Below are positions 9,839 to 35,238 of a stretch of 40,385 nt of DNA, in pieces. The translations under genes were made by a program, and so were the position numbers. The stretch is from Candidatus Thermoplasmatota archaeon (lineage in GTDB: Archaea > Thermoplasmatota > Thermoplasmata > RBG-16-68-12 > JAGMCJ01). Positions within the stretch are counted from its first letter, which is position 1. The number at the start of each line of letters is the position of its first letter. The notes beneath the pieces were generated by a model, which saw nothing but the letters and a program-made list of their open reading frames with translations, was not told where the DNA came from and did no database searches. Location of the stretch: the NCBI GenBank assembly GCA_022848865.1, contig JAJISE010000016.1:1-40385 (forward strand), given 5' to 3'.

Positions 9839-11475
9839 GGAGACACGCCCTTCCCATCATGCTCATCTTCTTCGTGGCGCTCACCATCAGGCTGGTCCCG
9901 CTCCTCTTCTCCCCGCTGCCGTACAACATTGACGGCTTCCCGCAGGCGAGGATAGCCGAGGACATCATGGACACGGGGAGGTGGTACGACGGCGGCCCGC
10001 TCGTGGAGCTGGAGTACAACGAGAAGCTACCCATCCTGCCGCTGTACTTCGCCATCAGCTCCCTCGCGGCGGGAGAGGAGCCCCTCTACTTCATCCAGAT
10101 AGCGATGGTCCTGCTCACGTCCCTCTCAGCAGTGTTCGTGTACATCCTGGCGTTCAAGATCACGGACTCCAGGGTCGCGGCCATCTTCGCGGGGCTGTTC
10201 ATGGCGCTCTGCGGCACGTATGTCTTCCTGACGGCATCGATAATGAAGCAGAACATAGGCCTGGTCCTCCTGCCGATAGTGCTCTACCTGTACCACGAGA
10301 GGCACAATCCCAAGTACAGGGCGCTGGCGGCGTTCCTGCTCCTCTTCATGGGCCTGGCGCACCACCTGGCGACGCTCATCGCCTTCGGGATGATTACGTA
10401 CATGATGGCGGCCCAGAACGTGGAGAGCCTGAGGAGGGGAGAGTGGAGGTGGAGGTCCTTCCTGCTGGACGTGCTCCTCGGGCCCGCTCTGATCCTCGCG
10501 ATCGTTGCGTACTACCTCGCGGTCGAGATGCCCTTCTTCATGGATGCCATGGACGTGAACACGATCTTCCTCTTCATGTCCGTGTACTTCCTCGTAGCGC
10601 TGCTGGCGGTCCACCTGTCATCTCCCAAGACGCTGAAACCTTGGTTCACGAACACCAAGAGGTCGCTCCCCAAGTACATCGACCAGAAGGTGCTGTTCAT
10701 CCTCGGCGCCGCATCCCTGCTCGTTCTGAACCACTACACGAACGTCTTCACTGGCACGATAAGGACGAAGGGCGACTTCCTCATCATCGCGGCCCCTTCC
10801 ATCGCGCTCCTGTTCGTTGCGCTCGTGGGCTTCAATGTGATGCGGAACTCGGAAACGCGGTTCAGACCTCTCATCACAGCGGCCTTCATGGCCCCGATCG
10901 CGGTGATGCTGTTCTCCTTCCTCTGGGGGCTGAACCCCGAGTCGTTCGTCGTCCTCTACAGGACCTATGACTACATGGACGTCGCTTTGGCCGTCTCGAT
11001 AGGCATCGCCTTTGCGGTGGCGCTAAAGAAGTCCAGGTCCCCCGCCAGAAAGGCCGTGCTTGCCGCCTCCTTCCTGGGGCTCATCCTTCTGACAACGCCG
11101 CTCGCGTACGGGAGCGAGGATTTCTACGATGTGCAGAACACGACCTATCCCGCGGAGTTCAGTGCGATGGAGCACATGAATGCGCTCAACATAAGCAATC
11201 TAGGATCGGACCAGAGGCTCCACGACACGTACAGATACTACTTCGGCGAGGACGAGGGCGATGGACTCCTCCCGTTCCGTATGGCGACAGGCAGTGACAT
11301 CACCATGTACGACTACCTCCTCCTCGAGTCGAAATGGACGACGAAGGGCGCCCAGGAGCACCCGCTACCGAGCGTGGTCATTGAGGACAGCATCTTCAAA
11401 AGAACGGTGGCGGAGGCCGACCTCATCTACAATTCGGGGCCGGGAGAGACCGAGATATTCATCGTGGCCAACTAG
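9835..11475 (+). CDS. Polytopic membrane protein resembling GT-C glycosyltransferases
   Basis: A 546-residue protein with roughly 11-12 transmembrane segments. The first external loop begins right after helix 1 and contains YNIDGFPQARIAEDIMDTG, with acidic residues placed like the catalytic loop of GT-C enzymes (oligosaccharyltransferase and PMT-like). A soluble C-terminal part of ~110 residues follows. The start is TTG 9835, overlapping the upstream permease stop as TTGA, with GGAGG sites just upstream, so it is translated coupled to the ABC permease. GT-C enzymes use lipid-linked sugars outside the membrane, which fits the nearby flippase and epimerase, but the reaction here is inferred. 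Its end overlaps the convergent KaiC-like gene by four bases. Confidence 0.65.
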   Translation: MRRHALPIMLIFFVALTIRLVPLLFSPLPYNIDGFPQARIAEDIMDTGRWYDGGPLVELEYNEKLPILPLYFAISSLAAGEEPLYFIQIAMVLLTSLSAVFVYILAFKITDSRVAAIFAGLFMALCGTYVFLTASIMKQNIGLVLLPIVLYLYHERHNPKYRALAAFLLLFMGLAHHLATLIAFGMITYMMAAQNVESLRRGEWRWRSFLLDVLLGPALILAIVAYYLAVEMPFFMDAMDVNTIFLFMSVYFLVALLAVHLSSPKTLKPWFTNTKRSLPKYIDQKVLFILGAASLLVLNHYTNVFTGTIRTKGDFLIIAAPSIALLFVALVGFNVMRNSETRFRPLITAAFMAPIAVMLFSFLWGLNPESFVVLYRTYDYMDVALAVSIGIAFAVALKKSRSPARKAVLAASFLGLILLTTPLAYGSEDFYDVQNTTYPAEFSAMEHMNALNISNLGSDQRLHDTYRYYFGEDEGDGLLPFRMATGSDITMYDYLLLESKWTTKGAQEHPLPSVVIEDSIFKRTVAEADLIYNSGPGETEIFIVAN

Positions 11476-12254
11476 AGCCGTGAGACCATTCTGCCCACGT
11501 CATACCGCTTCGGAGAGGCCCAGAACCTGCGGTCCTTGAACTCGAGAACGTAGTACCCCGGGTCGTGATTGACCTCTCTCATCTTCGTGCACCTGAGGAC
11601 CCTCGAGAGGTTCAGCTCCGCGGACGTCTCCATGAGCAGGTGGAGGATGCCGTCGGCCATGAAGTCGCTCTCGCGCACGATCTTCTCGTCCGGGGGGTTC
11701 TCGGATATTATGAACGTCGTGGTCCCCAGATCGTGAAGCCACCTGAAGAGTCTGAAGAGGCCGTACCTGCTGTTCCTGATGCCGCACACGATCTCGACAA
11801 GGGGCAGGGAGTCTATGACCAGGAGATCGTAGTCGATCACCTTCTTCTGGGTCTCCAGTATGTTCCTGAACTTCTTGAACCAGGGGGATTCCCTTCTCCC
11901 GTCCTCGCCAGAGTCGCCCATCCAGTCCTCCTCACCCTGGCGGAATACGGAGAGATCGAGGATCTCGACGCCGAACTCCCTGCCGACGAACATCCCCAGC
12001 TTCTGCATCTGCCTGATCAGGCTCTCCCTTGTCTGCTCCAGGGTGACGTACAGACCGCTTGCCAGGTCCTCCCTCGCGTTGTTGTAGAGGATGCTGAACG
12101 CCAGCGTGGATTTCATCGTCCCGGGCGCACCGGAGACCAGGACTATGTGACCCTGTGGGATCCCATCACCGAGATGGCTGTCAAAGCCCTCGATGTAGGT
12201 GCTGTAAGCCTTCTCCATCTTCTCAGGGCTGGGCTGAGCTTCTGAGATAGACAT
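11472..12254 (-). CDS. KaiC/RAD55-like (GvpD-type) RecA-superfamily ATPase
   Basis: A 260-residue single RecA-fold ATPase. The Walker A loop at residues 42-50 reads GAPGTMKST, with Met in place of the usual Gly before the Lys. Walker B is YDLLVIDSLP (about 143-152). The start at 12254 is supported by the TATA-like CTTATAATC centred 26-27 bp upstream, so the mRNA is probably leaderless. Related archaeal proteins are RAD55/KaiC-like or GvpD-like regulators often linked to signalling, chemotaxis or gas-vesicle control. The exact role is unknown. It lies directly behind valS but has its own promoter and an operator-like element shared with the Rab/TPR GTPase at 17358-18158. Confidence 0.8.
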   Translation of the reverse strand: MSISEAQPSPEKMEKAYSTYIEGFDSHLGDGIPQGHIVLVSGAPGTMKSTLAFSILYNNAREDLASGLYVTLEQTRESLIRQMQKLGMFVGREFGVEILDLSVFRQGEEDWMGDSGEDGRRESPWFKKFRNILETQKKVIDYDLLVIDSLPLVEIVCGIRNSRYGLFRLFRWLHDLGTTTFIISENPPDEKIVRESDFMADGILHLLMETSAELNLSRVLRCTKMREVNHDPGYYVLEFKDRRFWASPKRYDVGRMVSRL

Positions 12255-12275: not shown

Positions 12276-12315
12276 GATTATAAGCTGTTTGCCGTGATTA
12301 TCAGTGTTGATAGCG
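12276..12315 (-). promoter_or_regulatory. Promoter and putative operator of the KaiC-like gene
   Basis: The TATA-like CTTATAATCG occupies 12276-12285, about 26 bp from the ATG at 12254. Upstream, at 12296-12312, is GATTATCA-N4-TGATA, whose TATCA-N4-TGATA core is a perfect inverted repeat centred 25 bp from the TATA centre. The same core, at the same offset, precedes the Rab/TPR GTPase gene. The element fills the gap behind the valS stop codon. Activator binding next to the BRE/TATA region is the likely role, by inference. Confidence 0.5.
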
Positions 12316-12317
12316 GA

Positions 12318-14633
12318 CTAGCTGGCCAGCCTGTGCATCCTCGTCAGGTCGTCCTCGAAGGGCTTCAGCTCGCCTGGAATCGAAACCCCGGATATATCCT
12401 CGCGCAGGCTGAGCCCGCTCTCCTTCTTCAGCTTCCAGACCTCGGAGTTGAAGTCCATCAACTGCTGCGTGAGCTCGGTCAGCGGGCTGCTCCGATCCTC
12501 CCGCATGGAGGGCATCTCCTCCCTGTGGACGTCCCCGCCGTAGATCTCCTCCCAGATCCTGGCGGTTATGAACGGCGTTATCGGTGCCATCAGCCTCAGC
12601 AGGACCCTGAGGACCTCGTGCAGAGCGTAGAGCGAACCTGTCTGGCCCTCGTAGGCCCTCCCCTTGACCATCTCAACGTAGTGGGGCGCGAAGACGTTCC
12701 ACAGGAACTCCCTCACCCTGTTGGAGGGGACGAAGAAGTCGAAGTCCTCGTATGACTCCCTGCACGCCTCCGTCAGGGCGTTCACCTCCGCCAGTATCCA
12801 CTCGTCCGCGGGGCTCAGATCGCCCTTCTCCCCGGCGGGGAACGAGGATATGAACCGCGCCACGTTCCAGAGCTTCGTGAGGAACTTCTTGGCCCCGCCG
12901 ATCCTCTCATCGGATATGCGGAAGTCCGCCCCGATGGCGCAGCCGGCAGCGGACCAGTAGCGGAACGCGTCGGCGCCGTGCTTCTCGATCACCGGACCGG
13001 GGTCGATCACATTGCCGAGCGTCCTGTGCATCGCCCGCCCGTTCTCGTCCAGTCCCATCCCGTGAATGAAGACGTGCTGGAACGGCTTCTTCCCAGTGAC
13101 GAGGAAGCTCTTCAGGTGCGTGTAGTGCAGCCATGTGCGCACGATGTCCCGCCCCTGCGGCCGGAGCGAGCAGGGGAAGTTGTCCTTGAAGAAGCCCTCG
13201 TCCTGCATGTACTTGGTGACAATGAGATTCGAGTTGCTCGAGTCCATCCAGGTGTCGAACACTCGGTCCTCGCCGGTGAAGCTGCTCCCCCCGCACTTGG
13301 GACACGACTCGAGCGGCGGCGGGTCCTTCCACGGCTGGTAGTACTCCCCCGGTGGCGGGACGATGACCTCCCCGCAACCGTCGCAGTACCAGAGCGGGAT
13401 CTCGGTGTGGTAGTAGCGCCTCCTGCTCACGGGCCAGTCTATCGTTATCGCATCGAGCCACGTGTCGAGGTACCGCTTGGAATCGGACGGGTGGAACTCC
13501 ATCTCCCCCGCCAGCTTCCTGAGCTCGGGGACGAACTCAATCTGCTTGACGTACCACTCCTCCATTGAGATGAACTCGACCGACGTCCTGGAGCGGCTGC
13601 ACATCGGGCTGACGTGCATTATGGACTCCTCTTTCACGACGAGCCCCTGCTCGTGTAGGTCGTCGGTGATCGCCCGCCTGGCCTCCTCGGTGGTCATCCC
13701 CGCATACTTGCCGGCGGCCTCGGTCATCCTGCCCTCCACGTCGATCCCCTTCACCGCCTCCAGGCCGAGCTCCCTGAAGAACTGGACATCGACCTGGTCA
13801 CCGTAGGAGCACATCATCGCGGCGCCGGTACCGAACTCGGGCTTCGCGTAGTGATGCGGGTAGATGTTGACCTCCGTCCCGTATATCGGGACGATGGCCT
13901 TCTTGTTCTGGATGTGCGCGAACCTCTCATCGCCCGGATGCACGATGACGGCCTTGCACGCGCAGAGGAGCTCCGGGCGGGTCGTCGCGATGGGCAGGTC
14001 CTCGCCCGTGTCCTTGACCTTGAAGTTGACCGTCGTCATCGTGGACGGCTTCTCGACATACTCGATCTCCGCCTCCGCGATGGGCGTCTTGCAGGCGGGG
14101 CAGTAGAAGCTGGGCCTCTCGCCCTTGTAGACGAGCCCCTTGTGCCACAGGTCGATGAAGACCGCCTGCGTTATCCGCCTGTACTCGGGAGTGTCGGTCT
14201 CGTAGTAGCTATCCTCCCAGTCCGCGGACATCCCCATCCTGTGGGAGAGGTCCAGTATGCCCTCGGAGATCTTGCCGATCTCCTCCCTGCAGATGTCGAT
14301 GAACTCCTGGCGGTCGAACTCGTGCAGGCTCTTCTTGTGCTTCCTCTCGACCGTCAGCTCGATGTTTATGCCGTTCTTGTCCAGGCAGAAGGGGAAGAGG
14401 ACCTCGTACCCGAGCATCCTCCTCGAGCGGGCGATCATGTCGATGAGCGAGTAGCCGGCGACCGCCCCGATGTGCCACGTGCCCGAAGGATACGGCGGCG
14501 GGGTGTCTATGACGAACACGGGCTTCCCGGAATCGGGATCGAAGGGATGCAGGTCCTCCTGGGTCCATCTGTCCAGGAGTTCCTCCTCGAACTTGATTTC
14601 CCATCGTTTTTCCGTGATCTTGGGAGCAGCCAT
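12318..14633 (-). CDS. valS: Valyl-tRNA synthetase (class Ia)
   Basis: About 771 residues of a class Ia synthetase that charges tRNA-Val. The N-terminal nucleotide-binding half has PPPYPSGTWHIGA (the HIGH position is H54-I-G-A57). An editing-domain stretch IATTRPELLCACKAVIVHP follows, then Zn-ribbon-like CPAC and CDGC...CPKC pairs. The second signature at about residue 533 is AMHRTLGN where KMSKSxGN is expected. The C-terminal anticodon-binding helices follow (FVPSNRVREFLWN and after). The start is placed at the ATG at 14633 because GGGAGG lies immediately upstream; a codon five residues earlier (14648) is possible. The short length and HIG-x form suit archaeal ValRS. The departures from the consensus signatures are discussed separately. 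Confidence 0.85.
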   Translation of the reverse strand: MAAPKITEKRWEIKFEEELLDRWTQEDLHPFDPDSGKPVFVIDTPPPYPSGTWHIGAVAGYSLIDMIARSRRMLGYEVLFPFCLDKNGINIELTVERKHKKSLHEFDRQEFIDICREEIGKISEGILDLSHRMGMSADWEDSYYETDTPEYRRITQAVFIDLWHKGLVYKGERPSFYCPACKTPIAEAEIEYVEKPSTMTTVNFKVKDTGEDLPIATTRPELLCACKAVIVHPGDERFAHIQNKKAIVPIYGTEVNIYPHHYAKPEFGTGAAMMCSYGDQVDVQFFRELGLEAVKGIDVEGRMTEAAGKYAGMTTEEARRAITDDLHEQGLVVKEESIMHVSPMCSRSRTSVEFISMEEWYVKQIEFVPELRKLAGEMEFHPSDSKRYLDTWLDAITIDWPVSRRRYYHTEIPLWYCDGCGEVIVPPPGEYYQPWKDPPPLESCPKCGGSSFTGEDRVFDTWMDSSNSNLIVTKYMQDEGFFKDNFPCSLRPQGRDIVRTWLHYTHLKSFLVTGKKPFQHVFIHGMGLDENGRAMHRTLGNVIDPGPVIEKHGADAFRYWSAAGCAIGADFRISDERIGGAKKFLTKLWNVARFISSFPAGEKGDLSPADEWILAEVNALTEACRESYEDFDFFVPSNRVREFLWNVFAPHYVEMVKGRAYEGQTGSLYALHEVLRVLLRLMAPITPFITARIWEEIYGGDVHREEMPSMREDRSSPLTELTQQLMDFNSEVWKLKKESGLSLREDISGVSIPGELKPFEDDLTRMHRLAS

Positions 14634-14745
14634 GCGACCTCCCTTCACGATTCACTTCTGCTATAAAAAGAGAAGCCCCGCCGATGGTATGACTGGTAGC
14701 GCTGAACGCTCTTCCCTCGCTCCTCGGGTATCGGAAGCGAAACGC

Positions 14746-14752
14746 TTTTTAT
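14746..14752 (+). promoter_or_regulatory. TATA box of nadE
   Basis: A TTTTTAT element centred about 26 bp upstream of the ATG at 14775 is placed exactly for a leaderless transcript and decides this start over the upstream in-frame TTG at 14763. valS starts divergently at 14633. Confidence 0.5.
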
Positions 14753-14774
14753 CGCTGAGCCCTTGGCAGGGCTG

Positions 14775-15578
14775 ATGGCGCTCACGCCCAAGTTCAGGAA
14801 GGAGCTCGTCACGGTCATAGAGATGTTCCTGCGGGACTACCTGAAGAAGTCGGGAAGGAAGGGCATCCTCGTCGGGATGAGCGGGGGACTGGATTCCGCC
14901 ATCGTGGCGGCGCTCTGCGCTCGTGCTGTGGGACCGGAGAGCACCGCTTGCATCCACCTTCCGGACAAGGACTCGCCCAAGCAGGACGAGAAGGATGCGA
15001 GAGAGCACGCGGAGTCGCTGGGGATATCCTACATCGCGATCCCGATCGACGGCTTCGTGGAGTCGTTCCTCTCCCTGGAGGATACAGACGACAGGGTGAG
15101 GCTGGGCAACATCAAGGCGAGGTGCAGGATGGTCGTCCTCTACCACGCCGCGCATTCGATGGACCATATAGTCGCGGGAACGAGCAACAAGAGCGAGCTC
15201 CTCGTCGGGTACTTCACGAAGTACGGTGACGGGGCCTCGGACATCGCTCCCATAGGGGACCTCTACAAGACGCAGGTCAGGGACCTGGCGAAGGAGATAG
15301 GCATCCCGGACCGCCTGATGGAGAAGACGCCTTCGGCCGCCCTCTACCCCGGCCAATCGGACGAGGAGGAGCTGGGGATCTCCTACGCGGAGCTGGATTC
15401 GGTCCTGCTGGGCATCGAGCTGGGCTTCACTGCGGAGGACATCGTCGAGCGGACGGGGACGGACCTCGCGAAGGTGCACGACGTCTTCGAGCGGGTGAAG
15501 AAGAGCGCCCACAAGAGGCGGCTTGGGCTAGTGCCTAAGCTTGGCATAAGCACGGTCGGACTCGACTGGCGGGAGTAG
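14775..15578 (+). CDS. nadE: NH3-dependent NAD+ synthetase
   Basis: About 267 residues of an N-type ATP pyrophosphatase that converts nicotinic acid adenine dinucleotide plus ammonia and ATP to NAD+, the last step of NAD synthesis. The ATP-binding P-loop SGGLDSA is at residues 36-42, followed by NIKARCRM, the GTSNKSELLVGYFTKYGDG signature, and PIGDLYKTQV. There is no N-terminal nitrilase domain, so it uses free ammonia. The length is usual for the archaeal enzyme. Its 3' end overlaps the convergent PH-like gene by 51 bp; both frames are well supported. Confidence 0.93.
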   Translation: MALTPKFRKELVTVIEMFLRDYLKKSGRKGILVGMSGGLDSAIVAALCARAVGPESTACIHLPDKDSPKQDEKDAREHAESLGISYIAIPIDGFVESFLSLEDTDDRVRLGNIKARCRMVVLYHAAHSMDHIVAGTSNKSELLVGYFTKYGDGASDIAPIGDLYKTQVRDLAKEIGIPDRLMEKTPSAALYPGQSDEEELGISYAELDSVLLGIELGFTAEDIVERTGTDLAKVHDVFERVKKSAHKRRLGLVPKLGISTVGLDWRE

Positions 15579-16073
15579 TCCCATTCTCTCCCGCACTGCG
15601 TAGACGAACCTCTCCGGCTCGTCCACGCTGACGATGAGCTCGGTCGCCGACTTGCCCAGCACGAGAAGGAAGCGGATGGGGTTCCTCAGCCTTATGGAGA
15701 CGAGCCCGTGTTGCGATGTCGCGATGAAGACCTTGTCCTTGACCCAGGAGGACTTCACACCGTACTTGGCGACCTCGTTGGTCATCCCGATGGACTCGAT
15801 CTCGGCGTAGGGGATGGACACCTTGAAGTACAGCCCCTGTCTCAGCACGAGCATGGCCAGTGTGACCCAGTGATTGGTGAAGAACGGGGAAACGCCCACG
15901 ACGATGAGATACACGGCCAGCATCACGATGAGGAGGACCGACCAGGCCCCGAAGACGGGGAACAAGGATACCAGCATGAGCACGAGCCCCACGACCATCA
16001 GTACCAGGATCAGCCTGAGGACGAGGTACCCCTTCGGATAGGTGAAATCCAGCCTCCTGGACGAGTGCTCCAT
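15528..16073 (-). CDS. Membrane protein with C-terminal PH-like domain
   Basis: About 181 residues: two transmembrane helices near the N-terminus (YLVLRLILVLMVVGLVLMLV and AWSVLLIVMLAVYLIVVGV), then a soluble beta-rich segment (LYFKVSIPYAEIESIGMT through IRLRNPIRFLLVLG and IVSVDEPERFVYAVRERM). The pattern resembles bacterial PH-domain proteins of the YdbT/YcxB kind, membrane proteins of poorly known function. I chose ATG 16073 because a TATA-like ATATCAATA lies about 27-30 bp upstream; an ATG at 16145 in the same frame is a less likely start. The gene ends inside nadE. Confidence 0.65.
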   Translation of the reverse strand: MEHSSRRLDFTYPKGYLVLRLILVLMVVGLVLMLVSLFPVFGAWSVLLIVMLAVYLIVVGVSPFFTNHWVTLAMLVLRQGLYFKVSIPYAEIESIGMTNEVAKYGVKSSWVKDKVFIATSQHGLVSIRLRNPIRFLLVLGKSATELIVSVDEPERFVYAVRERMGLLPPVESDRAYAKLRH

Positions 16074-16157
16074 CGTTGCTCTCAAGAACCCGGTCCCTAT
16101 TGATATTTTCCCCTTGGTTATGCAGAACAGTTCCGAAAGCTTCATTATCGTTCCCTG

Positions 16158-16172
16158 GTATTGTATCAATAC
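16158..16172 (+). promoter_or_regulatory. Palindrome in the divergent PH-like/thioredoxin promoter region
   Basis: GTATTG-TAT-CAATAC is a perfect inverted repeat with 6-bp arms and a 3-bp centre, placed 15-29 bp upstream of the thioredoxin-like gene's ATG at 16187. It overlaps where a TATA box for a leaderless transcript would lie and is in the gap between two divergent genes. It is a likely operator, though the regulator is unknown. Confidence 0.4.
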
Positions 16173-16186
16173 AGGACTGAAGCCAG

Positions 16187-16876
16187 ATGACCAAGATGAG
16201 TAGATGCCCCATTTGCGGCAGCCCCGTGAAACCCGAGAACCTACCAAGGCATCTCAAGAAGGTCCACCCTGAAGAAGACGCGGAGAGCCGCATATCCAAG
16301 GCCCAAGGGAGGAGGGCCAAGGCGCGAGGGGGCGTCAGGAGGCGGGAGGGTGTCGTGTTTGCGGGTATAGCCATCGCGATCGTGGTCATCATCGTTCTAG
16401 CCATAGCCTACCAAGGACCCGCAGACTCGATGGTCGGCGAGGAGGCTCCCAGTTTCTCCATTGTGGACGTCAGAACGAGGATTCCCTACACGGTCCCGAC
16501 TTCCTTCCACGGTGAGCTGGTCTTCTTGGAGTTCTTCTCACCAAGCTGCGGCGCCTGTATCGACTTCATACAGACGATGGTGGAGCTCACGCAGACTTTC
16601 GGTTCGGACGCTGTGAACTTCATCTCCATTGACGTCAGGGCGGGTGACACCGACGCCATCCTCCTGGATTTCCTCAACCAACATCCTGAGGCTCAGTGGA
16701 CACACGCAATCGATACGTCCAACATGGCGAGTGCCTACAACGTCGGAGGAACCCCCAAGTTGTTCATATTGGACCTGATAGAGGAGCCTATGAACGGCAT
16801 CGTGAAATACGACCATGTCGGCACTGATACGTACAGCAACATCGCTTCCATTCTCAACGATCTACTGGGCAAATAG
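16187..16876 (+). CDS. Membrane-anchored thioredoxin-fold protein with N-terminal C2H2 zinc finger
   Basis: 229 residues in three parts. Residues 1-28 form a zinc finger-like unit, C7-x2-C10 then H22-x4-H27 (CPIC ... RHLKKVH). A basic linker follows, then a transmembrane helix at about 56-75 (FAGIAIAIVVIIVLAIA). Residues ~85-229 form a TlpA/thioredoxin domain with the redox pair C121-G-A-C124 and the cis-proline-like GGTPKLFI. With the basic linker inside, the zinc finger would face the cytoplasm and the CGAC site the outside. The VKOR gene starts 8 bases downstream, so the pair probably oxidises cysteines of exported proteins. The zinc-finger fusion is unusual. Start may be 16187 or the ATG at 16196. 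Confidence 0.85.
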   Translation: MTKMSRCPICGSPVKPENLPRHLKKVHPEEDAESRISKAQGRRAKARGGVRRREGVVFAGIAIAIVVIIVLAIAYQGPADSMVGEEAPSFSIVDVRTRIPYTVPTSFHGELVFLEFFSPSCGACIDFIQTMVELTQTFGSDAVNFISIDVRAGDTDAILLDFLNQHPEAQWTHAIDTSNMASAYNVGGTPKLFILDLIEEPMNGIVKYDHVGTDTYSNIASILNDLLGK

Positions 16877-16884
16877 GGATTATC

Positions 16885-17361
16885 ATGTACACGCGAATAC
16901 ACAAGGAGGGGACCGTCCTCAGGCTGATTCTCGTTCTCTCCCTCTTGGGAATCGCTCTCTCGGGCTACCTCACCTACGTCCACTACAACAGATCGGAGGG
17001 CTGGTGCCCGATAGGCGGCGGATGCTACGATGTCTGGGATAGTGAGTACAGCGTGGTCTTCGGGATCCCCGTCGCCCTCATCGGACTCCTGGGCTACATC
17101 GCACTGTTCGGCATGTCCTACCTGAGGCTCTACTACCCGGAGATGGGAATCGCAGAGAACTTCCCCACGTACATGCTCATCATTGCGATCATAGGCGCCG
17201 GGTTCTCGACCTACCTGACGCTTATCGAGATATTCGTCATCCAGGCCGTATGCGACTACTGCCTCTCCGCCTTCGTGGTCATGATGGCGATCCTCGGGTT
17301 GATAGCCTACGGCATCTTGAAAGGTAAGGATGAAGCTGCCGCGGAGCCCGTGGCGGCCTAG
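16885..17361 (+). CDS. Vitamin K epoxide reductase (VKOR) family protein
   Basis: A 158-residue protein with four or five transmembrane helices and the complete VKOR cysteine set: loop pair C41/C47 (WCPIGGGCYD) and active-site C123-D-Y-C126. VKOR homologues regenerate the oxidised form of a thioredoxin-like partner by passing electrons to quinone, functionally replacing DsbB. The partner is encoded immediately upstream, eight bases away, in the same operon. The C-terminal tail KGKDEAAAEPVAA is cytoplasmic-looking. Its stop overlaps the end of the convergent GTPase gene by four bases. Confidence 0.92.
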   Translation: MYTRIHKEGTVLRLILVLSLLGIALSGYLTYVHYNRSEGWCPIGGGCYDVWDSEYSVVFGIPVALIGLLGYIALFGMSYLRLYYPEMGIAENFPTYMLIIAIIGAGFSTYLTLIEIFVIQAVCDYCLSAFVVMMAILGLIAYGILKGKDEAAAEPVAA

Positions 17362-18158
17362 GCCCTGACATTGCAGAGCGCGGCCATCTTCTCATCGCCC
17401 AGTTTGCTGAAAACCTCTGCCTTGAGCCCCCAGACGTCGGGGTAATCCGTATCCAATCTCGTCACCTCGTGGAGGACGGCTATGGCCTCATCATACCTCT
17501 CAAGGATCACGAGTGCCTCTCCCTTGATGTAGAGGGAGTCTATGTCTTCAGGACTGGACTCGAGCGTCTTCTCCGCCTCGTCCAGACCGGCCTGAGCGTC
17601 ATCATATCTCTTCTGGACTATCCTGGTAGCAAGGTTCAAGAAGATCTCCTCGACGAACTCACCAGTCTTTGCGCTCGTCATCTGGTACGGGCAGTCGTAG
17701 GTCCCTGCCATCTCTTTCATCTCCTTCTCCTCGAATGACACGCTGCCGAGGTCGATCTTGTTCGCGATGAGGTACTGCGGGATGTCCCCGGTTATCTCGG
17801 TGACAGCCTCCACCCAATGGACCAGCTTGTCGAAGGTCTCCCTCTCGCCGGAGTCGCACACGACTATGACGCCCTTCGCTCCGAAGAAGTAAGCGTCCCT
17901 CAGAAGGTCCCGGAACTGCTTCTGCCCCATTATGTCCCAGACGATCATGTCCACGTCCAGCGTGCTGTCGTTCAGCGGATGGGTCAGCTGGAGCTTCTTC
18001 TTCCAGATGTTCGTTCCTATCGTGGAGAAGTACTTGGGGTCGAAGGTGTTGAAGACGAACCGCCTCACGAGGCTCGTCTTCCCCACGGCGGGTTCCCCGA
18101 CGAGACAGATCTTCATCTTCATCGAGATTCTCTGAGCGAGAGTGGACTTGCTAGCCAT
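17358..18158 (-). CDS. Rab/Ras-like small GTPase with TPR-like C-terminal tail
   Basis: About 266 residues. A Ras-superfamily G domain spans residues ~14-180: P-loop GEPAVGKTS (21-29), switch I with STIGTN, WDIMGQ (G3, catalytic Gln kept), NKID (G4) and TSAKTG (G5). The last ~80 residues contain two TPR-like helical pairs (RYDDAQAGLDEAEKTLESSP and ILERYDEAIAVLHEVTRL). Small Rab-like GTPases of this kind occur in archaea, with unknown roles in signalling or motility. The start is set at ATG 18158 because an in-frame upstream ATG (18188) lies within the TATA box. A perfect inverted repeat upstream is shared with the KaiC-like gene. Confidence 0.85.
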   Translation of the reverse strand: MASKSTLAQRISMKMKICLVGEPAVGKTSLVRRFVFNTFDPKYFSTIGTNIWKKKLQLTHPLNDSTLDVDMIVWDIMGQKQFRDLLRDAYFFGAKGVIVVCDSGERETFDKLVHWVEAVTEITGDIPQYLIANKIDLGSVSFEEKEMKEMAGTYDCPYQMTSAKTGEFVEEIFLNLATRIVQKRYDDAQAGLDEAEKTLESSPEDIDSLYIKGEALVILERYDEAIAVLHEVTRLDTDYPDVWGLKAEVFSKLGDEKMAALCNVRA

Positions 18159-18185
18159 TGACGTTCCCAGAATTCGCATGGCCTT

Positions 18186-18224
18186 CATATAGGGCTTTCC
18201 GAGAGATTATCAGGTATGATAATC
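18186..18224 (-). promoter_or_regulatory. Promoter and inverted-repeat operator of the Rab/TPR GTPase gene
   Basis: On the minus strand a TATA-like CTATATG lies at about 18186-18192, 31 bp from the ATG at 18158. Upstream, 18205-18224 is a perfect inverted repeat with 8-bp arms GATTATCA and TGATAATC and centre GGTA. Its centre is about 25 bp from the TATA centre, the same distance as for the KaiC-like gene. The remaining sequence to 18378 shows only weak promoter-like A/T runs for the deoxyhypusine synthase gene. Confidence 0.55.
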
Positions 18225-19429: not shown

Positions 19430-22400
19430 CTAGTAGACTGGGACTTCCCCTTCGGAGGGGGGTTCCGCCGGTGCTGGAGGCTCATCGGGTTCAACAGGCT
19501 CCTCAGGAATGATCTCCTCGAGTTCGGGGATCTCCTCCTCCATTGGCACGTCCTCCTCGAGCACTGCTGGCTCCTCGACCGGGGCGGGCGGCTTCCTCTT
19601 CATCAGGAGGAGGAGCACCACGATGACTATCAGGATGATTATGATGAGGATGAGCCACCAGGCCTGTGCTATGTCGAATTCAGCTGACGGTGCGGGTGGT
19701 CCTTCTGGCTCGACCACTGTTGTGAAGTCCACTACCTCCTGGGACAAGGAGTTCCCCGCGAGATCCTCAGCTCCTGAGCCAATGGTCAGCGTATAGTCAG
19801 TGTCGTAGATGGCATCCCGCAGCTCGATCGTGACTGCCGAGGAGTCTGCGTTCCAGTAGAAGTCGTGAATCGTTCCGGCCGAGATGTCGGTCGCGGTCTC
19901 GACGGATGCCTCATCCATGGGTTCACTGAAGACGACCACGATCGTGATCGTTCCATCGACCATTGGGATATCGTTGTCTCCGTCATCTGGATACGTCAAG
20001 ATAACCTCTGGAGGCGTGGTGTCGACTGCGGGCTCTGCCTCGGTGTGGAACAGTACGAGATAGTGTTCGAATATCGTGTTCCCAGCCAGGTCCGCTGCAG
20101 TGTCGGTGATATTGACGAGGTAGGACGTGGAGTAGGCCAGAACCGGCAGGATCACCGTCACGGTCGTGTCTCCAGACCAGGAGAAGCCTGTCGGCGTTAC
20201 ACCGCTGATGATGATCGCCGCCTCGACGGATGCTGTGTTCATGGACTCGCTGAACACTATGACCAGATTGGCGTTCACGTTGATGTCCGTCTCTCCGTCG
20301 TCCGGGGAGGTGAACCGTATCACTGGTCGTGTGATATCTGCGCCGGGGGCGAAGGTCGTGAAGTGGAGGGTGAAGTCAGCTGACATGGGGTTCCCCTCCA
20401 CGTCCTCCGCCACGGTGGTTACAGTGACCGTGTATAGTGTGCCTTCCAACAGACCCACAAACTCCACCTCCAAGACCGTGTCGTTGTAAGTCCAGTAGTA
20501 ATTGGTCGCACCCACGACCGGGCTTATCGATACTGCTGCCTCAACAGAATCTGTGCTCATCGGCTCGCTGAAGACTATGTAGACGCTGGCGGTTATCGGA
20601 ACGCCCAGTGCACCTTCCTCAGGATCGGTGAATATGATCTCAGGCGGTATGATATCCACGACTGGAGGATCCTCCGTCGTGAATGCGGCACTGTATGCTG
20701 CGCTGAGCGGGTTGCCCGCTGCGTCTTGGGCGGTCACGGAAACCGACAGCGTGTAGGGTGTTGAGTAGGAGAACGGAGCTGTGGTAATAATCTCAACGAG
20801 TGTGTTGTTGGAGAACCAGCTGTAGCTCTGAATTGCGGCTCCTGATATCGTTATGGCCGATTCCGTCATTATGGTGTTCATGGGCTCGCTGAAGACGACC
20901 TTCAGGATGACATCTATCGGGACGCCGGTGGCCCAGTCCTCGGGATATGAGTATATCACTTCGGGCGATATGATGTCGGGTCCTGCCGACGCTGTGGTCA
21001 TGAAGTTGAAGAAGTATGCGCTGGTCATCGGAATCCCTGACGCATCGGTGGCCGTTGCGTTCACGTTGATCACGTACATCGAGCTGTACGCGAGGTTCGA
21101 CAGACTCAACGTAACAATGTCGTCCTGGAGGTTCCAGTTGTAGGCCGTGATTACGGCTCCGCTGCTTATTGTGATTTCTGCCTCCACAGAGGCCGTGTCC
21201 ATGGGCTCGCTGAATCCTATGACCACCGATGTGCTGAGCGGCTGGTCCGTTGCGCCATCGTAAGGTGATGTGAATATCACGGTTGGCGGTGTTGCATCCA
21301 GTACGGTCACGGTCATCGTGTCGATACCTGCCCATCCTGCACCGTCCCAGACGGTCAATGTGACTATGTAGCCTCCTGGCTCTGTGAAGACGTAGGTGGG
21401 CGATACACCGATCAAGGCGACCACGTTCGCACCTTCTATGAACGTCCACCTGTAGTCGACCACTCCCACATTGTCAGTGGAGCCTGAGCCGTTGAACGTC
21501 ACCACTGTGTCCTCGTTGACGATCTGATCTGGACCTGCGTCCGCAATTGGGGGATCGGCGTCAAAGACTGTCACGACCATGTTGTCCGCGCCGCCGTTTG
21601 AGGCGTTGTCGCGAACGTTCAGGATCGCTGTGTAGTCTCCGGGTGTCACGAATGTGAATGTTGGATTCACACCGTACAGTGTGATGAGTGTGGCGTTGTA
21701 CGTGAATGTCCACGTGTAGTTGACCACGCCCACGTTGTCCGTGGAACCGGAACCGTCGAACTGGACCAGTGTCCCGGAAGGAACGTTCCGATCGGGCCCG
21801 GCGTCCGCGGTTGGTGGTGTCACATCGAGCACGGTTATCTGAACTGTGTCCGTGGCTGGAGGATTCGCCCAATCATCGACTTCCAGCGTGATCGTGTAGA
21901 CCCCTGGCTCGGTGAACACATACGTCGGTGTTGGACCTGGGAGACTCTGCGGAACACCTTGGTCAATGAATGTCCATGTGTAGGATTGGATTTCGACGTT
22001 GTCTGTGGAGTTGGTTCCGTCGAGCAGCACAACGGTGTCCTCGTCAACGATCTGATCGGGGCCCGCATCTGCGATGGGTCCGTCCACATCCCAGATTACC
22101 AGCTGGAGGTGCACATATGCGTAGAAGCTGTACGTCCTCAAGGCAGTCCCCACTCCGGGCGCATTGGCCGTTATGTCGTACGGATTGTAGTGTACGGCAG
22201 TCATGGCATTCCGCCACTGATCGTCCACGAAGTTCAGTCTGAGGAAGCCGTCCGCGCCTGTTGTGCCATTTATGTACGGCGTCCCGAAAGTGTCGCTCGT
22301 ATCGACGAAGGCCCCTGCAAGAGGAGAAGCTCCGTTGGTCATCACCTCGATGTCTATGTACCAGCTTCTCTTGGCCCACGAAAGCGCATCGAGGAACATG

Positions 22401-25400
22401 CCGTTGTTGATGTTGAACGTGGTGTTTATTCCCCAGAGTGTGGAGTTCCCGTCCAGTACAAAGTCGACTTGGGATGCGCTATCAAGCGAAGAGTTGTACA
22501 CCACGAAGTGAGCGCCGGATGGCAGATTGAGAGATTGGTTGTTCATGACGATCTGGCTACTCTCCACGATCGCATCCGAGCTGATTGAGTAGATGCCAGC
22601 CTGGTGTCCCTGAATCAGGGCATCCGAGATCCTGGCGTTCACCCCGAACATCACGATCCCGAACTCACCATTTCCCACGGCCGTGATGTCACGTAGTGTG
22701 ACGTTTGCAGCCGGAGATGCGCTGAAATCGAGCATCGTTCCGGAGCACCATCCGCCATTCTGGCAGTTCGCGAAGAAGTCTGAACCGTCGATGTCGACAT
22801 CAGACACTCCGAAGGCGCCCAGATAGAGTCCGTCCCATCCATTGAGGGCGAAGGTGTCCGATCTCCCTGTGTAATTGAGATTCCCGAAGCCGAAGGCGTT
22901 AATGCCGTATCCGGCGTTGTTGCTGAATTCGTTTGAGCTGGTGACCAGGGTCAGGTTGGACATGGCGAAGACGCCCAAGCCATAGTTCATGGTATTCACG
23001 TTGAATTCCGAAATCGAGATGTCGATTACGGCATCGTTGTTCGAGGAGACATAGAGACCCGCCTGGTTCTTACGGAATGCTGAATCGATAACGTCCAAGG
23101 TCAGCTGCCCGTTGTAGTGGAATATCATCCATCCGGTCGCGTCGTTGCCATTGATCCAACCGCGCCTGATCGTCACGTCGGCGGACCGGTTCAGCTCGAA
23201 GAGGATCTCCCGGTCGTTTCTCAGGGAATACATGTAATCCCATAACATGTCCGAGGTCCCCTCAGCATAGACTCTTGCGGAGTAGCTGCCGACGGAGTCC
23301 ACGGAGAAATCGAAGTAGGAGTCGATCATCAGATGACCGTACGGGTCCGTTGCCGTCAGGTTGAAGTTGACGCGGCTCTGGATGAAGCTGTTCCATTCCG
23401 TTACTAGGTTTGCCGACGGGGCTTCCAGATGGAACCCATCGTGCGCTGCATTGCCCATGCGGTTGTTCAGCATCGTCAGATTGGCCTGACCGCCAGTGAC
23501 AATGTAGACCGAACTATCGAAGTTGCTCTGCTCGAACCTGTTGTTGTCAAGAATGGCATCCAACCAGCCGCCTATGTTGACGTAGAGGGAGTTGTAGTCC
23601 CCGAACCTGACGTTGTTGAAGTGGGCGGTCAGTGTCAAATTGCCTGATGGGAACTCCAGCCAGATTCCATCCACGTAGTTGGAGAACACATTGTTGCGAA
23701 GCGTGACTGTCGCATCCCCTCCCATGCTGTCGGAGTATATTCCTCCCCAGATGTTGCCACCAGTGTTGTTGCTGCTGTCTATGTCAACGGCGCCGTCACC
23801 CGCGACGGCGTAAATCGACCAAAACCCGATGTTCAGGAAGGAATTTCCAGAGACACTGCCTCGTATCCCCGCCCATGCCGCTGAGACAATTCCGAAGTCG
23901 GGTGTTGTCTGAACCGTGTTGTTGAGTATGTCGAACTGCGCGGTTCCCGTATTGGCCAAGACGAGGATGCTGGCGGGAAAGAACATGGGCATAAGGCCGG
24001 TATCGATGAGCCTGTTATATTGGATGTCGGCGAGGACGCTACCAACGTCCGACAAAGCAAGGATGCCAACGTCATTGCAGATGTCGATCGAGTTCTCATA
24101 AGCATAGACCTCAACATCGCCTCCGAACGAGTAGAAGTACATGGCGCCGCAGGTGTTCGGACCGCAGTCGGTCGACGAGTTGGTTATGGTGTTATTGTGC
24201 GACCAAGCAATGATGTACGCATCCAGACCTGAGTACACGGCGACCCCTGGGCCGCTGACGTTCGTGATTGTGTTGTTCGCGACACGGACATCGGCGAACT
24301 GCTGTGACTCAACGTACATGCCATGGCTGCCCGAACCGTACGTGTTGTTGATGGTGTTCAGCTCCATGTTCACGGTTGCGGAGACGCTCGAGAGGATGTA
24401 CACGGCGTCTCCTGAATGGTCGTCGAAATCGTTCCTGGATATGTCCATGTCGACCGTCTCACCGTCGACCACGATCCCGCTGACGCCATTCCACAGAGTG
24501 TTGCCAGCAAAGTTGCCAGTGATGTTCAGTCCGGTGACGAACGCGCCTCGATTGTAGATTGTGATGTCGTTCCGCCGGAATTCGATGTGCGAGTCTGCCG
24601 AAGCTAGAGCAGGGCTGACCCGCAGTGCGACAGAGTGATCCTCTATCCAGTTGTCAGCTGCCACCGCGATGATATCGACACCTGGGGGGGAGCCCCAGGC
24701 AAGTCCGGCCCCTCCGTTCTGGTATATCCATGAGTTCGTGACCACCATAGTGGAGTCGGAGGCGAATGCGCCGTTCCCTGCGTTCTGCATTATGGCGCAG
24801 TAATCCATGAGAAGCGTGGAGCCGCGGTAGGCGTACAAACCATCCACTCCCGGACCCCAGCCGTTTCGAGCGATGAAAGAATCGTTCAGATACATCCTCG
24901 AGCCATTGAGGAAGACGCCCTGTGAGGCCGCCCACACGATCTCGACATCCGTGAATTCGAGCAGGGCGTTCTCCGCACCTACGACACCGTATTCGCCATT
25001 GTAGATCCAAGTCCTCCTGACAATTGCCCTGCTGTGATTTGCGATAAGCCCAATGGAATTCATGTCCAGAATCGAGTCCTCGATAACCGTCAGATCGGAC
25101 TCGGAGTATATGCCGAAGTCGTCACCATAAGTGGGATTGCCCACAGGGGGCAGACCACAATGAACGACCCTGCTGCGGTTCAGCAGGAAGGTCCCGCCCT
25201 GTCTTATGTAGAACCGGTATCGCTCTACGAGTCCGGGACCCTGTATCGTGCTGGCGTCGCTGTCACCCATGTCCAAGGGCGAGAGGCCGTCGCCGCCATC
25301 GTAGACCAGGAATGTCCCACCGGGTTGAACCTCGATGAAGAACTCGCCCGGAAAGGTGCTGTTGATCTGCAGGACCACGTTGAACAGCACCAGTGTGCCT

Positions 25401-25630
25401 TGACCTTCGATTATGAGGTTGCCGTTCACGTAGATCGTCTTGTTCCCGTGGACCACGTAGTCCCCTGCTTCGATGGTCCACGTCCCAGATGTCTCCCAAT
25501 AACCGGGAGAAATCATGGTGGGTGGATTCAGCTCGGCCTTTGCCGACGGCACGAGTGCCGAGAACATCGAAGCCAGAAGCAGCACCATCACTGCCACAAC
25601 CAGATACCTACCGCTCACTCCATTACTCAT
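19430..25630 (-). CDS. Giant cell-surface protein: beta-helix, PKD and SbsA Ig-like domains, C-terminal membrane anchor
   Basis: About 2,066 residues. A signal peptide (to about residue 33, ending SAKA) precedes a very long right-handed beta-helix region (about 40-1150, NosD-like, rich in Asn, Gly and Ser). Three PKD domains follow (from about 1187, each opening like ADAGPDQIV), then five SbsA-type Ig-like domains (about 1447-1970, repeating VFSEPM). A C-terminal transmembrane helix (about 1991-2010) is followed by KRK and a 56-residue cytosolic tail rich in Glu and Pro. Such proteins are surface adhesins or glycan-binding S-layer-associated proteins. Start is uncertain: ATG 25630 with GGGAGAG upstream is preferred; a GTG at 25648 behind GAGGAGGC is plausible. 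A TATA-like TTATAA lies at about 25690. Confidence 0.85.
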   Translation of the reverse strand: MSNGVSGRYLVVAVMVLLLASMFSALVPSAKAELNPPTMISPGYWETSGTWTIEAGDYVVHGNKTIYVNGNLIIEGQGTLVLFNVVLQINSTFPGEFFIEVQPGGTFLVYDGGDGLSPLDMGDSDASTIQGPGLVERYRFYIRQGGTFLLNRSRVVHCGLPPVGNPTYGDDFGIYSESDLTVIEDSILDMNSIGLIANHSRAIVRRTWIYNGEYGVVGAENALLEFTDVEIVWAASQGVFLNGSRMYLNDSFIARNGWGPGVDGLYAYRGSTLLMDYCAIMQNAGNGAFASDSTMVVTNSWIYQNGGAGLAWGSPPGVDIIAVAADNWIEDHSVALRVSPALASADSHIEFRRNDITIYNRGAFVTGLNITGNFAGNTLWNGVSGIVVDGETVDMDISRNDFDDHSGDAVYILSSVSATVNMELNTINNTYGSGSHGMYVESQQFADVRVANNTITNVSGPGVAVYSGLDAYIIAWSHNNTITNSSTDCGPNTCGAMYFYSFGGDVEVYAYENSIDICNDVGILALSDVGSVLADIQYNRLIDTGLMPMFFPASILVLANTGTAQFDILNNTVQTTPDFGIVSAAWAGIRGSVSGNSFLNIGFWSIYAVAGDGAVDIDSSNNTGGNIWGGIYSDSMGGDATVTLRNNVFSNYVDGIWLEFPSGNLTLTAHFNNVRFGDYNSLYVNIGGWLDAILDNNRFEQSNFDSSVYIVTGGQANLTMLNNRMGNAAHDGFHLEAPSANLVTEWNSFIQSRVNFNLTATDPYGHLMIDSYFDFSVDSVGSYSARVYAEGTSDMLWDYMYSLRNDREILFELNRSADVTIRRGWINGNDATGWMIFHYNGQLTLDVIDSAFRKNQAGLYVSSNNDAVIDISISEFNVNTMNYGLGVFAMSNLTLVTSSNEFSNNAGYGINAFGFGNLNYTGRSDTFALNGWDGLYLGAFGVSDVDIDGSDFFANCQNGGWCSGTMLDFSASPAANVTLRDITAVGNGEFGIVMFGVNARISDALIQGHQAGIYSISSDAIVESSQIVMNNQSLNLPSGAHFVVYNSSLDSASQVDFVLDGNSTLWGINTTFNINNGMFLDALSWAKRSWYIDIEVMTNGASPLAGAFVDTSDTFGTPYINGTTGADGFLRLNFVDDQWRNAMTAVHYNPYDITANAPGVGTALRTYSFYAYVHLQLVIWDVDGPIADAGPDQIVDEDTVVLLDGTNSTDNVEIQSYTWTFIDQGVPQSLPGPTPTYVFTEPGVYTITLEVDDWANPPATDTVQITVLDVTPPTADAGPDRNVPSGTLVQFDGSGSTDNVGVVNYTWTFTYNATLITLYGVNPTFTFVTPGDYTAILNVRDNASNGGADNMVVTVFDADPPIADAGPDQIVNEDTVVTFNGSGSTDNVGVVDYRWTFIEGANVVALIGVSPTYVFTEPGGYIVTLTVWDGAGWAGIDTMTVTVLDATPPTVIFTSPYDGATDQPLSTSVVIGFSEPMDTASVEAEITISSGAVITAYNWNLQDDIVTLSLSNLAYSSMYVINVNATATDASGIPMTSAYFFNFMTTASAGPDIISPEVIYSYPEDWATGVPIDVILKVVFSEPMNTIMTESAITISGAAIQSYSWFSNNTLVEIITTAPFSYSTPYTLSVSVTAQDAAGNPLSAAYSAAFTTEDPPVVDIIPPEIIFTDPEEGALGVPITASVYIVFSEPMSTDSVEAAVSISPVVGATNYYWTYNDTVLEVEFVGLLEGTLYTVTVTTVAEDVEGNPMSADFTLHFTTFAPGADITRPVIRFTSPDDGETDINVNANLVIVFSESMNTASVEAAIIISGVTPTGFSWSGDTTVTVILPVLAYSTSYLVNITDTAADLAGNTIFEHYLVLFHTEAEPAVDTTPPEVILTYPDDGDNDIPMVDGTITIVVVFSEPMDEASVETATDISAGTIHDFYWNADSSAVTIELRDAIYDTDYTLTIGSGAEDLAGNSLSQEVVDFTTVVEPEGPPAPSAEFDIAQAWWLILIIIILIVIVVLLLLMKRKPPAPVEEPAVLEEDVPMEEEIPELEEIIPEEPVEPDEPPAPAEPPSEGEVPVY

Positions 25631-25888
25631 TCTCTCCCATATCGCCACAAGAACGCCTCCTCTGTGATGGCGGGTAATCCACATCGGCTTATAAGAATGT
25701 TGACGACGGAGCTGATGGTGGCCATTGCGGGCCTCACAGGGCCTCGGAGACTCGGTGAGGTTCATTGAGATGCGGCCCACTGAGTACGTGAAGGACTGGT
25801 GTTTGGCTCAACTCCTCCCGCCACACCCGGGTCCTCGATCCTGTATCTCCCCTGAATGACAAACGAGAGTTCATAACCATCGGCATCC

Positions 25889-34206: not shown

Positions 34207-34347
34207 ATATTGGCACAGCCACGAAAAGGTGCGCAGGCAGAGCCATCGCTGAGGCACGTTCTTATCGCAAATGAGAATCAGAGCGTGGGGTTGAAAATCT
34301 AAGGGGGGAATGGAACCGTTGACGAGTTTAGTCGAGAGGAGAGCCAT

Positions 34348-35238
34348 TTGCGGTCGAAGAAGAGAAGGAAGATACTGTTGGAGGGTGTTTCCAGCGGGAA
34401 TCTCGTCGACGTCAATAAGGAAAGCAGGATAATCTTTGAGATTCTTGTGAAGGGGTCGCCCTATCGTCTGCAGACTATCTCGACCGTGCTCGAGGCGGAT
34501 GGCTGGCTTCATGATGAGGATCGGATCTTCCTAACGGTCCCGAAGAATGCGTTCTCCCAGCCCGAGATGATAAGAGCGGTCCACGACGCCGTGAAGAGAG
34601 TGCAGTACCTCCTGAAGACAAGCGGGATAGAGTACGAGATGAGAATCGTGTCGGAGGACAGGCCCAGGCCGACAGGGAGCGTCCTCAAGGCCAAGATCGG
34701 CCTGGTCGGGGATCAGAAGGTCGGGAAGACCAGCCTCATCCGAAGATACGTTCTGGACCAGTTCAGTGACAAGCACATAAGGACGATAGGAGCGAAGGTC
34801 TCGAAGAAGCAGGTCTATCTCGACTTCCATGAAGGCAAGGCGGTCAGAGTGGACATGATGATCTGGGACATCATCGGGGAGAGGCACCTGGCCGAGCTGC
34901 ACATGAAGGAGTACTATGTCGGTGTGCAGGGAATCCTCGTTGTCATTGACATAACTCGAAGGAAGACCCTCGCGGGCGTTGAGGACTGGCTTTCATCCGT
35001 TCTAGAGGTCACGGGGGACGTCCCCATACACCTGCTCGTCAACAAGTGCGACCTGGAGGACAGGTTCGACATGGAGGGGGGAGAGATCGCTGCTCTCTCC
35101 ACGAAGATTCGTTCTCCTTTCATTTTCACAAGTGCCAGGACCGGGAAGAACGTGGAAGGCGCTTTCGCGGACCTTGCCATGAAAATCGCAGTCAAGACCG
35201 GGGAGTCTTCCAGGGAAGCCCTTAGGGCAACAGCGTGA
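34348..35238 (+). CDS. Rab-like GTPase with unique N-terminal domain
   Basis: 296 residues. Residues 1-105 form a separate alpha/beta domain of unknown kind (KILLEGVSSGNLVDV, SPYRLQTISTVLEADGWLHDEDR). The G domain from ~113 has P-loop GDQKVGKTS (121-129), HIRTIGA in switch I, WDIIGER (G3, with Glu where Ras-family proteins have catalytic Gln), NKCD (G4) and TSARTG (G5). It resembles the GTPase at 17358-18158, including the WDI-x-G motif and the EVTGD-(V/I)-P segment, but lacks its TPR tail. The start is TTG 34348 with GAGAGGAG upstream. The role is unknown; the Gln-to-Glu change may slow GTP hydrolysis. Confidence 0.8.
   Translation: MRSKKRRKILLEGVSSGNLVDVNKESRIIFEILVKGSPYRLQTISTVLEADGWLHDEDRIFLTVPKNAFSQPEMIRAVHDAVKRVQYLLKTSGIEYEMRIVSEDRPRPTGSVLKAKIGLVGDQKVGKTSLIRRYVLDQFSDKHIRTIGAKVSKKQVYLDFHEGKAVRVDMMIWDIIGERHLAELHMKEYYVGVQGILVVIDITRRKTLAGVEDWLSSVLEVTGDVPIHLLVNKCDLEDRFDMEGGEIAALSTKIRSPFIFTSARTGKNVEGAFADLAMKIAVKTGESSREALRATA

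Follow-up and report, generated by a model that had tools for sequence, protein, structure and literature searches.

A CsmR-type operator upstream of Ras-family GTPase and KaiC-like ATPase genes points to a signalling regulon in an uncultured Thermoplasmatota archaeon

CsmR (HVO_1209) of Haloferax volcanii is a 13-kDa winged-helix protein whose ChIP-seq motif, TATCA(N4)TGATA, was recovered in 50 of 65 peaks (PMC13286277, PLoS Genet 2026). As reported in June 2026, this motif is placed upstream of the BRE and the TATA box and forms with the TATA box an element of ~34 bp. CsmR has 2P4W as a structural neighbour, is linked to the KaiC-like protein CirA and targets archaellum, chemotaxis and cell-shape genes. 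Deletion of csmR raises the expression of motif-bearing genes, and the authors make a case for positive control as well; according to them csmR is almost entirely confined to Halobacteria and some Thaumarchaeota (PMC13286277). In the haloarchaeal gas vesicle system, the activator GvpE and the P-loop ATPase GvpD are encoded together and act on their own promoter, where a 20-nucleotide 8-4-8 element adjoins the BRE and the ATPase controls the activator (PMC4390858). The glycolytic motif (TGM) of TrmBL1/Tgr in Thermococcales, TATCAC-N5-GTGATA, lies upstream of the BRE and TATA box at activated promoters (PMC4158304). Finally, KaiC-like ATPases have been described as archaeal signal-transduction hubs (Makarova, Galperin and Koonin 2017), as cited in PMC5847659.

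The DNA analyzed here comes from the metagenome-assembled genome GCA_022848865.1 of an uncultured Candidatus Thermoplasmatota archaeon (2,026,789 bases, or 2.03 Mb, in 136 contigs). The window, meaning the whole stretch that was analyzed, is contig JAJISE010000016.1, positions 1 to 40,385. A preliminary description had reported two copies of TATCA-N4-TGATA in this window, and we confirmed both in the sequence, at 12299-12312 and 18208-18221. The first forms the core of an operator on the minus strand (12296..12315) that reads CGCTATCA-ACAC-TGATAATC in gene orientation; its core is perfect, as described, and its TATA-facing half is complete. It is followed by an A-rich BRE (about 12285-12290, minus strand) directly upstream of a TATA box read from the sequence as CTTATAAT (12277..12284, minus strand), which is identical in the related genomes G001 and G004. 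The gene behind it encodes a single-domain KaiC-like ATPase of 260 residues (11472..12254, minus strand; PF06745, 3e-33) and is predicted to be leaderless. The second copy belongs to an operator at 18205..18224 on the minus strand that is, again as described, a perfect 8-4-8 inverted repeat, GATTATCA-TACC-TGATAATC in gene orientation and GATTATCA-GGTA-TGATAATC when read on the other strand. A TATA box read as CCTATATG (18186..18193, minus strand) separates it from the gene of a Ras-family GTPase with C-terminal TPR (17358..18158, minus strand; PF00071, 3e-32, and PF14559), for which we prefer the ATG at 18158 over 18188 because the latter overlaps the TATA box. At both promoters the operator centre lies about 24.5-25 bp upstream of the TATA centre, in agreement with the earlier figure of about 25 bp. 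Exact TATCA-N4-TGATA was observed twice in the window against 0.02 expected, while a loose version allowing two mismatches was not enriched there (5 observed against 8.2 expected). The divergent deoxyhypusine synthase gene (18379) was ruled out as an operator target, as a TATA box at the right distance is absent. A weak operator-like site, TCTTATCGCAAATGAGAATC (34260..34279, plus strand), scores 9.5 with the position weight matrix (PWM) at -79 of the next gene; it is a possible site and not a firm one, shuffled windows yielding 1-3 matches as strong. The window contains one more gene for a Ras-family GTPase, its second, which encodes 296 residues (34348..35238, plus strand; PF00071, 6e-33). 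The window also holds an open reading frame of 2116 codons (19430-25780, minus strand).

Since the operator sequence and layout agree with those of Haloferax CsmR (PMC13286277), the circuit, which the preliminary description had taken to be undescribed, is not wholly so. The operator is of the already known CsmR type, with the same TATCA(N4)TGATA palindrome in the same ~34-bp placement upstream of BRE and TATA (here a 14-bp site, with the TATA box ending about 20 bp beyond it). The system differs from CsmR in its phylum, in its Ras, KaiC and longin targets, in its GvpD-like partner and in having several paralogues of the candidate regulator; the target set, the GvpD-like pairing and the phylum are new. 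Archaellum, chemotaxis and cell-shape genes were not found among the operator sites for which genomic context was retrieved. The TrmBL1 motif is likewise an inverted repeat with a TATCA/TGATA core upstream of BRE and TATA, but its TATCA-to-TGATA spacing is 7 instead of 4, and its targets belong to sugar metabolism whereas those found here are mainly signalling genes. The wrong spacing rules out that this is the TGM regulon, and the candidate regulator lacks the TrmB effector domain. With GvpD/GvpE the system shares an 8-4-8 element by the BRE and a GvpD-like P-loop ATPase (PF07088) encoded beside a candidate transcription factor, but the element sequence differs and GvpE resembles a leucine-zipper protein, whereas the candidate here is a winged helix. 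No gas vesicle genes were seen among the operator targets. The grouping of KaiC-like ATPases with DUF835 proteins and response regulators recalls the hubs mentioned in PMC5847659. A literature search did not find a shared operator joining KaiC-like ATPases to Ras-family GTPases and longin proteins.

Throughout the genome (G000; contigs are given as C numbers) the motif is far more frequent than expected. Exact TATCA-N4-TGATA occurs 22 times against once for the reversed pattern, which served as the control for motif counts, and TTATCA-N4-TGATAA with up to one mismatch occurs 34 times against 0. By the simple gene calls made in this analysis, on which several target assignments also depend, 20 of the 22 exact sites are intergenic; two (L006 and L019) fall within ORFs. 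The exact site at C1:85144 has no evident promoter. When 295 genomes of the phylum were searched for the perfect 16-mer, 10 copies were counted in this genome alone and 0-5 in any other.

The sites show a clear preference for signalling genes. The genome contains 29 KaiC matches and 19 Ras-family matches, 17 of the latter near full length. Five of these 17 Ras genes have a perfect site directly upstream; if about 2,000 genes are assumed, 24 of them site-bearing, the hypergeometric p is about 1e-6. With the PWM, 11 of 15 scorable Ras genes reach at least 8.5 bits (Fisher p 2e-6), a test that is circular for the Ras promoters whose perfect sites are in the training set and conservative in that the background genes were drawn from site neighbourhoods. 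One further Ras gene sits in an operon behind a PWM site of at least 8.5 bits. Other operator-bearing units encode wHTH-KaiC-KaiC/TPR proteins (C52) and a 231-residue protein followed by a KaiC protein (C8), and operators also precede genes for DUF835 proteins (C8 and C13), TPR proteins (C3 and C20), stand-alone AsnC ligand-binding proteins (C10 and C17) and small winged-helix proteins. The proposal that KaiC-like and Ras-like genes form one regulon under a single factor is supported by enrichment and by the conservation described below, but not its restriction to two genes, the regulon being much larger. Non-signalling targets exist, among them OTCase, aldehyde ferredoxin oxidoreductase and PHA genes. 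At C3:37941-40379 (minus strand, L022) four genes for Ras-family GTPases lie in tandem; two operators of this array are perfect and two are degenerate. A similar four-gene array occurs on C48 of genome G014.

In eukaryotes, small GTPases have longin domains among their partners (see also PMC10933270). At C6:20200-27001 (plus strand, L066) an operator leads a unit that encodes a response regulator (C6:20200-21009), a PAS/GAF histidine kinase of 1355 residues and two KaiC-like proteins; a Ras gene lies immediately downstream of this unit. The C-terminal domain of the response regulator is predicted to adopt a longin-type fold (pLDDT 76, from a three-sequence alignment), and its Foldseek matches include the small subunits of AP and COPI, VAMP7, Sec22b and the Mon1-Ccz1 GEF. 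Such a domain is also present in an operator-linked protein on C2.

The motif is also retained in relatives, as the preliminary description had anticipated for a genuine operator. The named relatives are Thermoplasmata or Thermoplasmatota metagenome-assembled genomes; f1-f6 designate families of the order, f2 being a sister family. The four same-genus genomes contain 9-18 matches per strand and those of f2 contain 3-26, with controls of 0-1 in both cases. At the KaiC gene, G001 and G004 have a perfect operator and G003 a version with one mismatch; at the GTPase gene the operator is retained in G001, G003 and JAGMCJ010000007, with an altered spacer in two of these. Conservation among close relatives is in itself weak footprinting, because identity is ~90% across the whole promoter; the promoters of f2 carry more weight. 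In f4 perfect sites are almost absent although the winged-helix protein is present, and the Ras promoters of the f4 genome G007 have degenerate sites alone, with 3 of 13 reaching at least 10 bits against 1 of 26 neighbours, a difference too weak to count on its own. Family f14 genomes, G079, G082 and G096 among them, have 3-5 perfect 16-mers each (controls 0-1), and a smaller regulon elsewhere in the class is possible.

A candidate for the regulator is encoded on C8, where small winged-helix genes come directly after the gene of a GvpD-like KaiC-family ATPase (PF07088, PF06745). Winged-helix proteins are encoded on C8 at 20244-20585 and 19772-20116. Several of the small winged-helix genes have operators of their own, while some winged-helix paralogues have no good operator. 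The candidate has ~113 residues. Searches of Pfam and NCBIfam gave weak matches alone (HTH_20, TrmB, Sta1 and Phr), and the structure model (pLDDT 87) has Phr of P. furiosus (2p4w) as best match. Compared by size, winged-helix fold and structural neighbour (2p4w), CsmR and the candidate agree. The ATPase/winged-helix pair is kept through the order, with an ATPase identity of about 47-56%. In the sampled f1-f6 genomes the first winged-helix gene is preceded by an operator match at -51 to -54. This match is often diverged, as in TATCA-N4-CGAGAA in f4, and shuffles of the same upstream sequence reach its score in at most 1% of trials. In the distant genomes G012, G038 and G040 perfect sites are rare, and several are at winged-helix/GvpD-like genes. 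From the operators at these loci and the winged-helix model, the best candidate is a winged-helix factor that would regulate itself, and the small winged-helix protein is most likely the operator binder. Among seven haloarchaeal plasmid relatives of the winged helix, TATCA-N4-TGATA was absent from the 8-kb stretch and a csmR locus was not found there. An unlikely alternative is that the regulon is real and has another binder, the small winged-helix genes being mere targets. Examples are a winged-helix protein of 240 residues (C52:2767-3489) and an HTH-TPR protein (C8:12489-13826), whose genes also bear perfect operators. The association of an operator match with the small winged-helix/GvpD-like locus in f1-f6, G038 and G040 argues against this, as does the likeness in size and nearest structural neighbour of the small winged helix to CsmR, which binds the motif in Haloferax.

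In 48 promoters from five genomes the layout reads TATCA-N4-TGATAA, ~8 bp, A-rich BRE, TATA. The TATA-facing half is the better kept: 44 of the 48 have A beside TGATA, and 22 have the mirror T. Because orthologous promoters share their ancestry, this count is only descriptive. In this genome, 17 promoters have a good TATA box, and in 13 of these the TATA box is 22-28 bp away from the operator centre (p about 3e-8 under uniform placement). Such a fixed position beside BRE and TATA might be expected of a generic strong-promoter or architectural element without a single regulator, but the motif is palindromic, occurs no more than about 34 times in 2 Mb and is strongly biased to Ras and KaiC-type genes, and we regard this explanation as very improbable. 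The number of sites in one genome and the clustering of several exact ones on C3 and C8 might suggest a palindromic repeat that has spread as a mobile element, but this is hardly credible given their unrelated flanks, near-random spacers and fixed TATA distance, and given that at orthologous sites the spacers change while both half-sites are kept.

The explanation that we consider quite probable as a whole is a signalling regulon of ~25-35 promoters under the winged-helix candidate, autoregulated and tuned by the ATPase. From the sequences we infer that one factor acts at all operators. A DNA-binding protein, probably a dimer, would occupy ATTATCA-N4-TGATAAT immediately upstream of BRE and TATA and would set how easily TFB, TBP and RNA polymerase load at its targets. 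These would largely make up a signalling network of Ras-family GTPases, KaiC-like ATPases, DUF835, TPR and longin-fold proteins and stand-alone AsnC-ligand-domain proteins, and the winged-helix protein would control its own promoter. The GvpD-like ATPase probably modulates the winged-helix factor, by analogy with the tuning of GvpE by GvpD and with that proposed for CirA and CsmR. Activation by TFB recruitment would fit a site upstream of the BRE; repression is equally possible by analogy with the raised expression of motif-bearing genes on loss of CsmR in Haloferax.

There is about an even chance that a widespread type of regulator, a small winged helix with a KaiC-family ATPase and one operator, has been rewired in Thermoplasmatota so that it governs, as master switch, an expanded network of Ras GTPases, longin and KaiC proteins. 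If so, eukaryote-like small GTPases could be approached through their transcription in archaea other than Asgard, in which the role of such proteins is poorly known; this genome has 17 near-full-length Ras-family members. A small DNA-binding protein resembling CsmR probably places the eukaryote-like signalling proteins under common control here. Because the common operator groups Ras GTPases with KaiC-like ATPases and a longin-fold response regulator, their partners can be named and tested. The CsmR-type operator of haloarchaeal motility control is now seen in another phylum with different targets, which makes the evolution of an archaeal regulon testable.

Some further loci deserve mention. 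The operator-linked small TPR proteins at C20:24271-24975 (minus strand, L221) are similar by eye to the TPR tail of the window GTPase. At C5:37673-38482 (minus strand, L216) a Ras-family gene with a one-mismatch operator upstream is broken by an in-frame TGA just past the P-loop, which may be an assembly error, a pseudogene or recoding. At C13:24248-26543 (minus strand, L072) an operator precedes a short-chain dehydrogenase gene followed by genes for PHA synthase subunit E-like proteins, and the G014 ortholog of the dehydrogenase gene (L075) likewise has an operator; carbon storage may therefore belong to the regulon.
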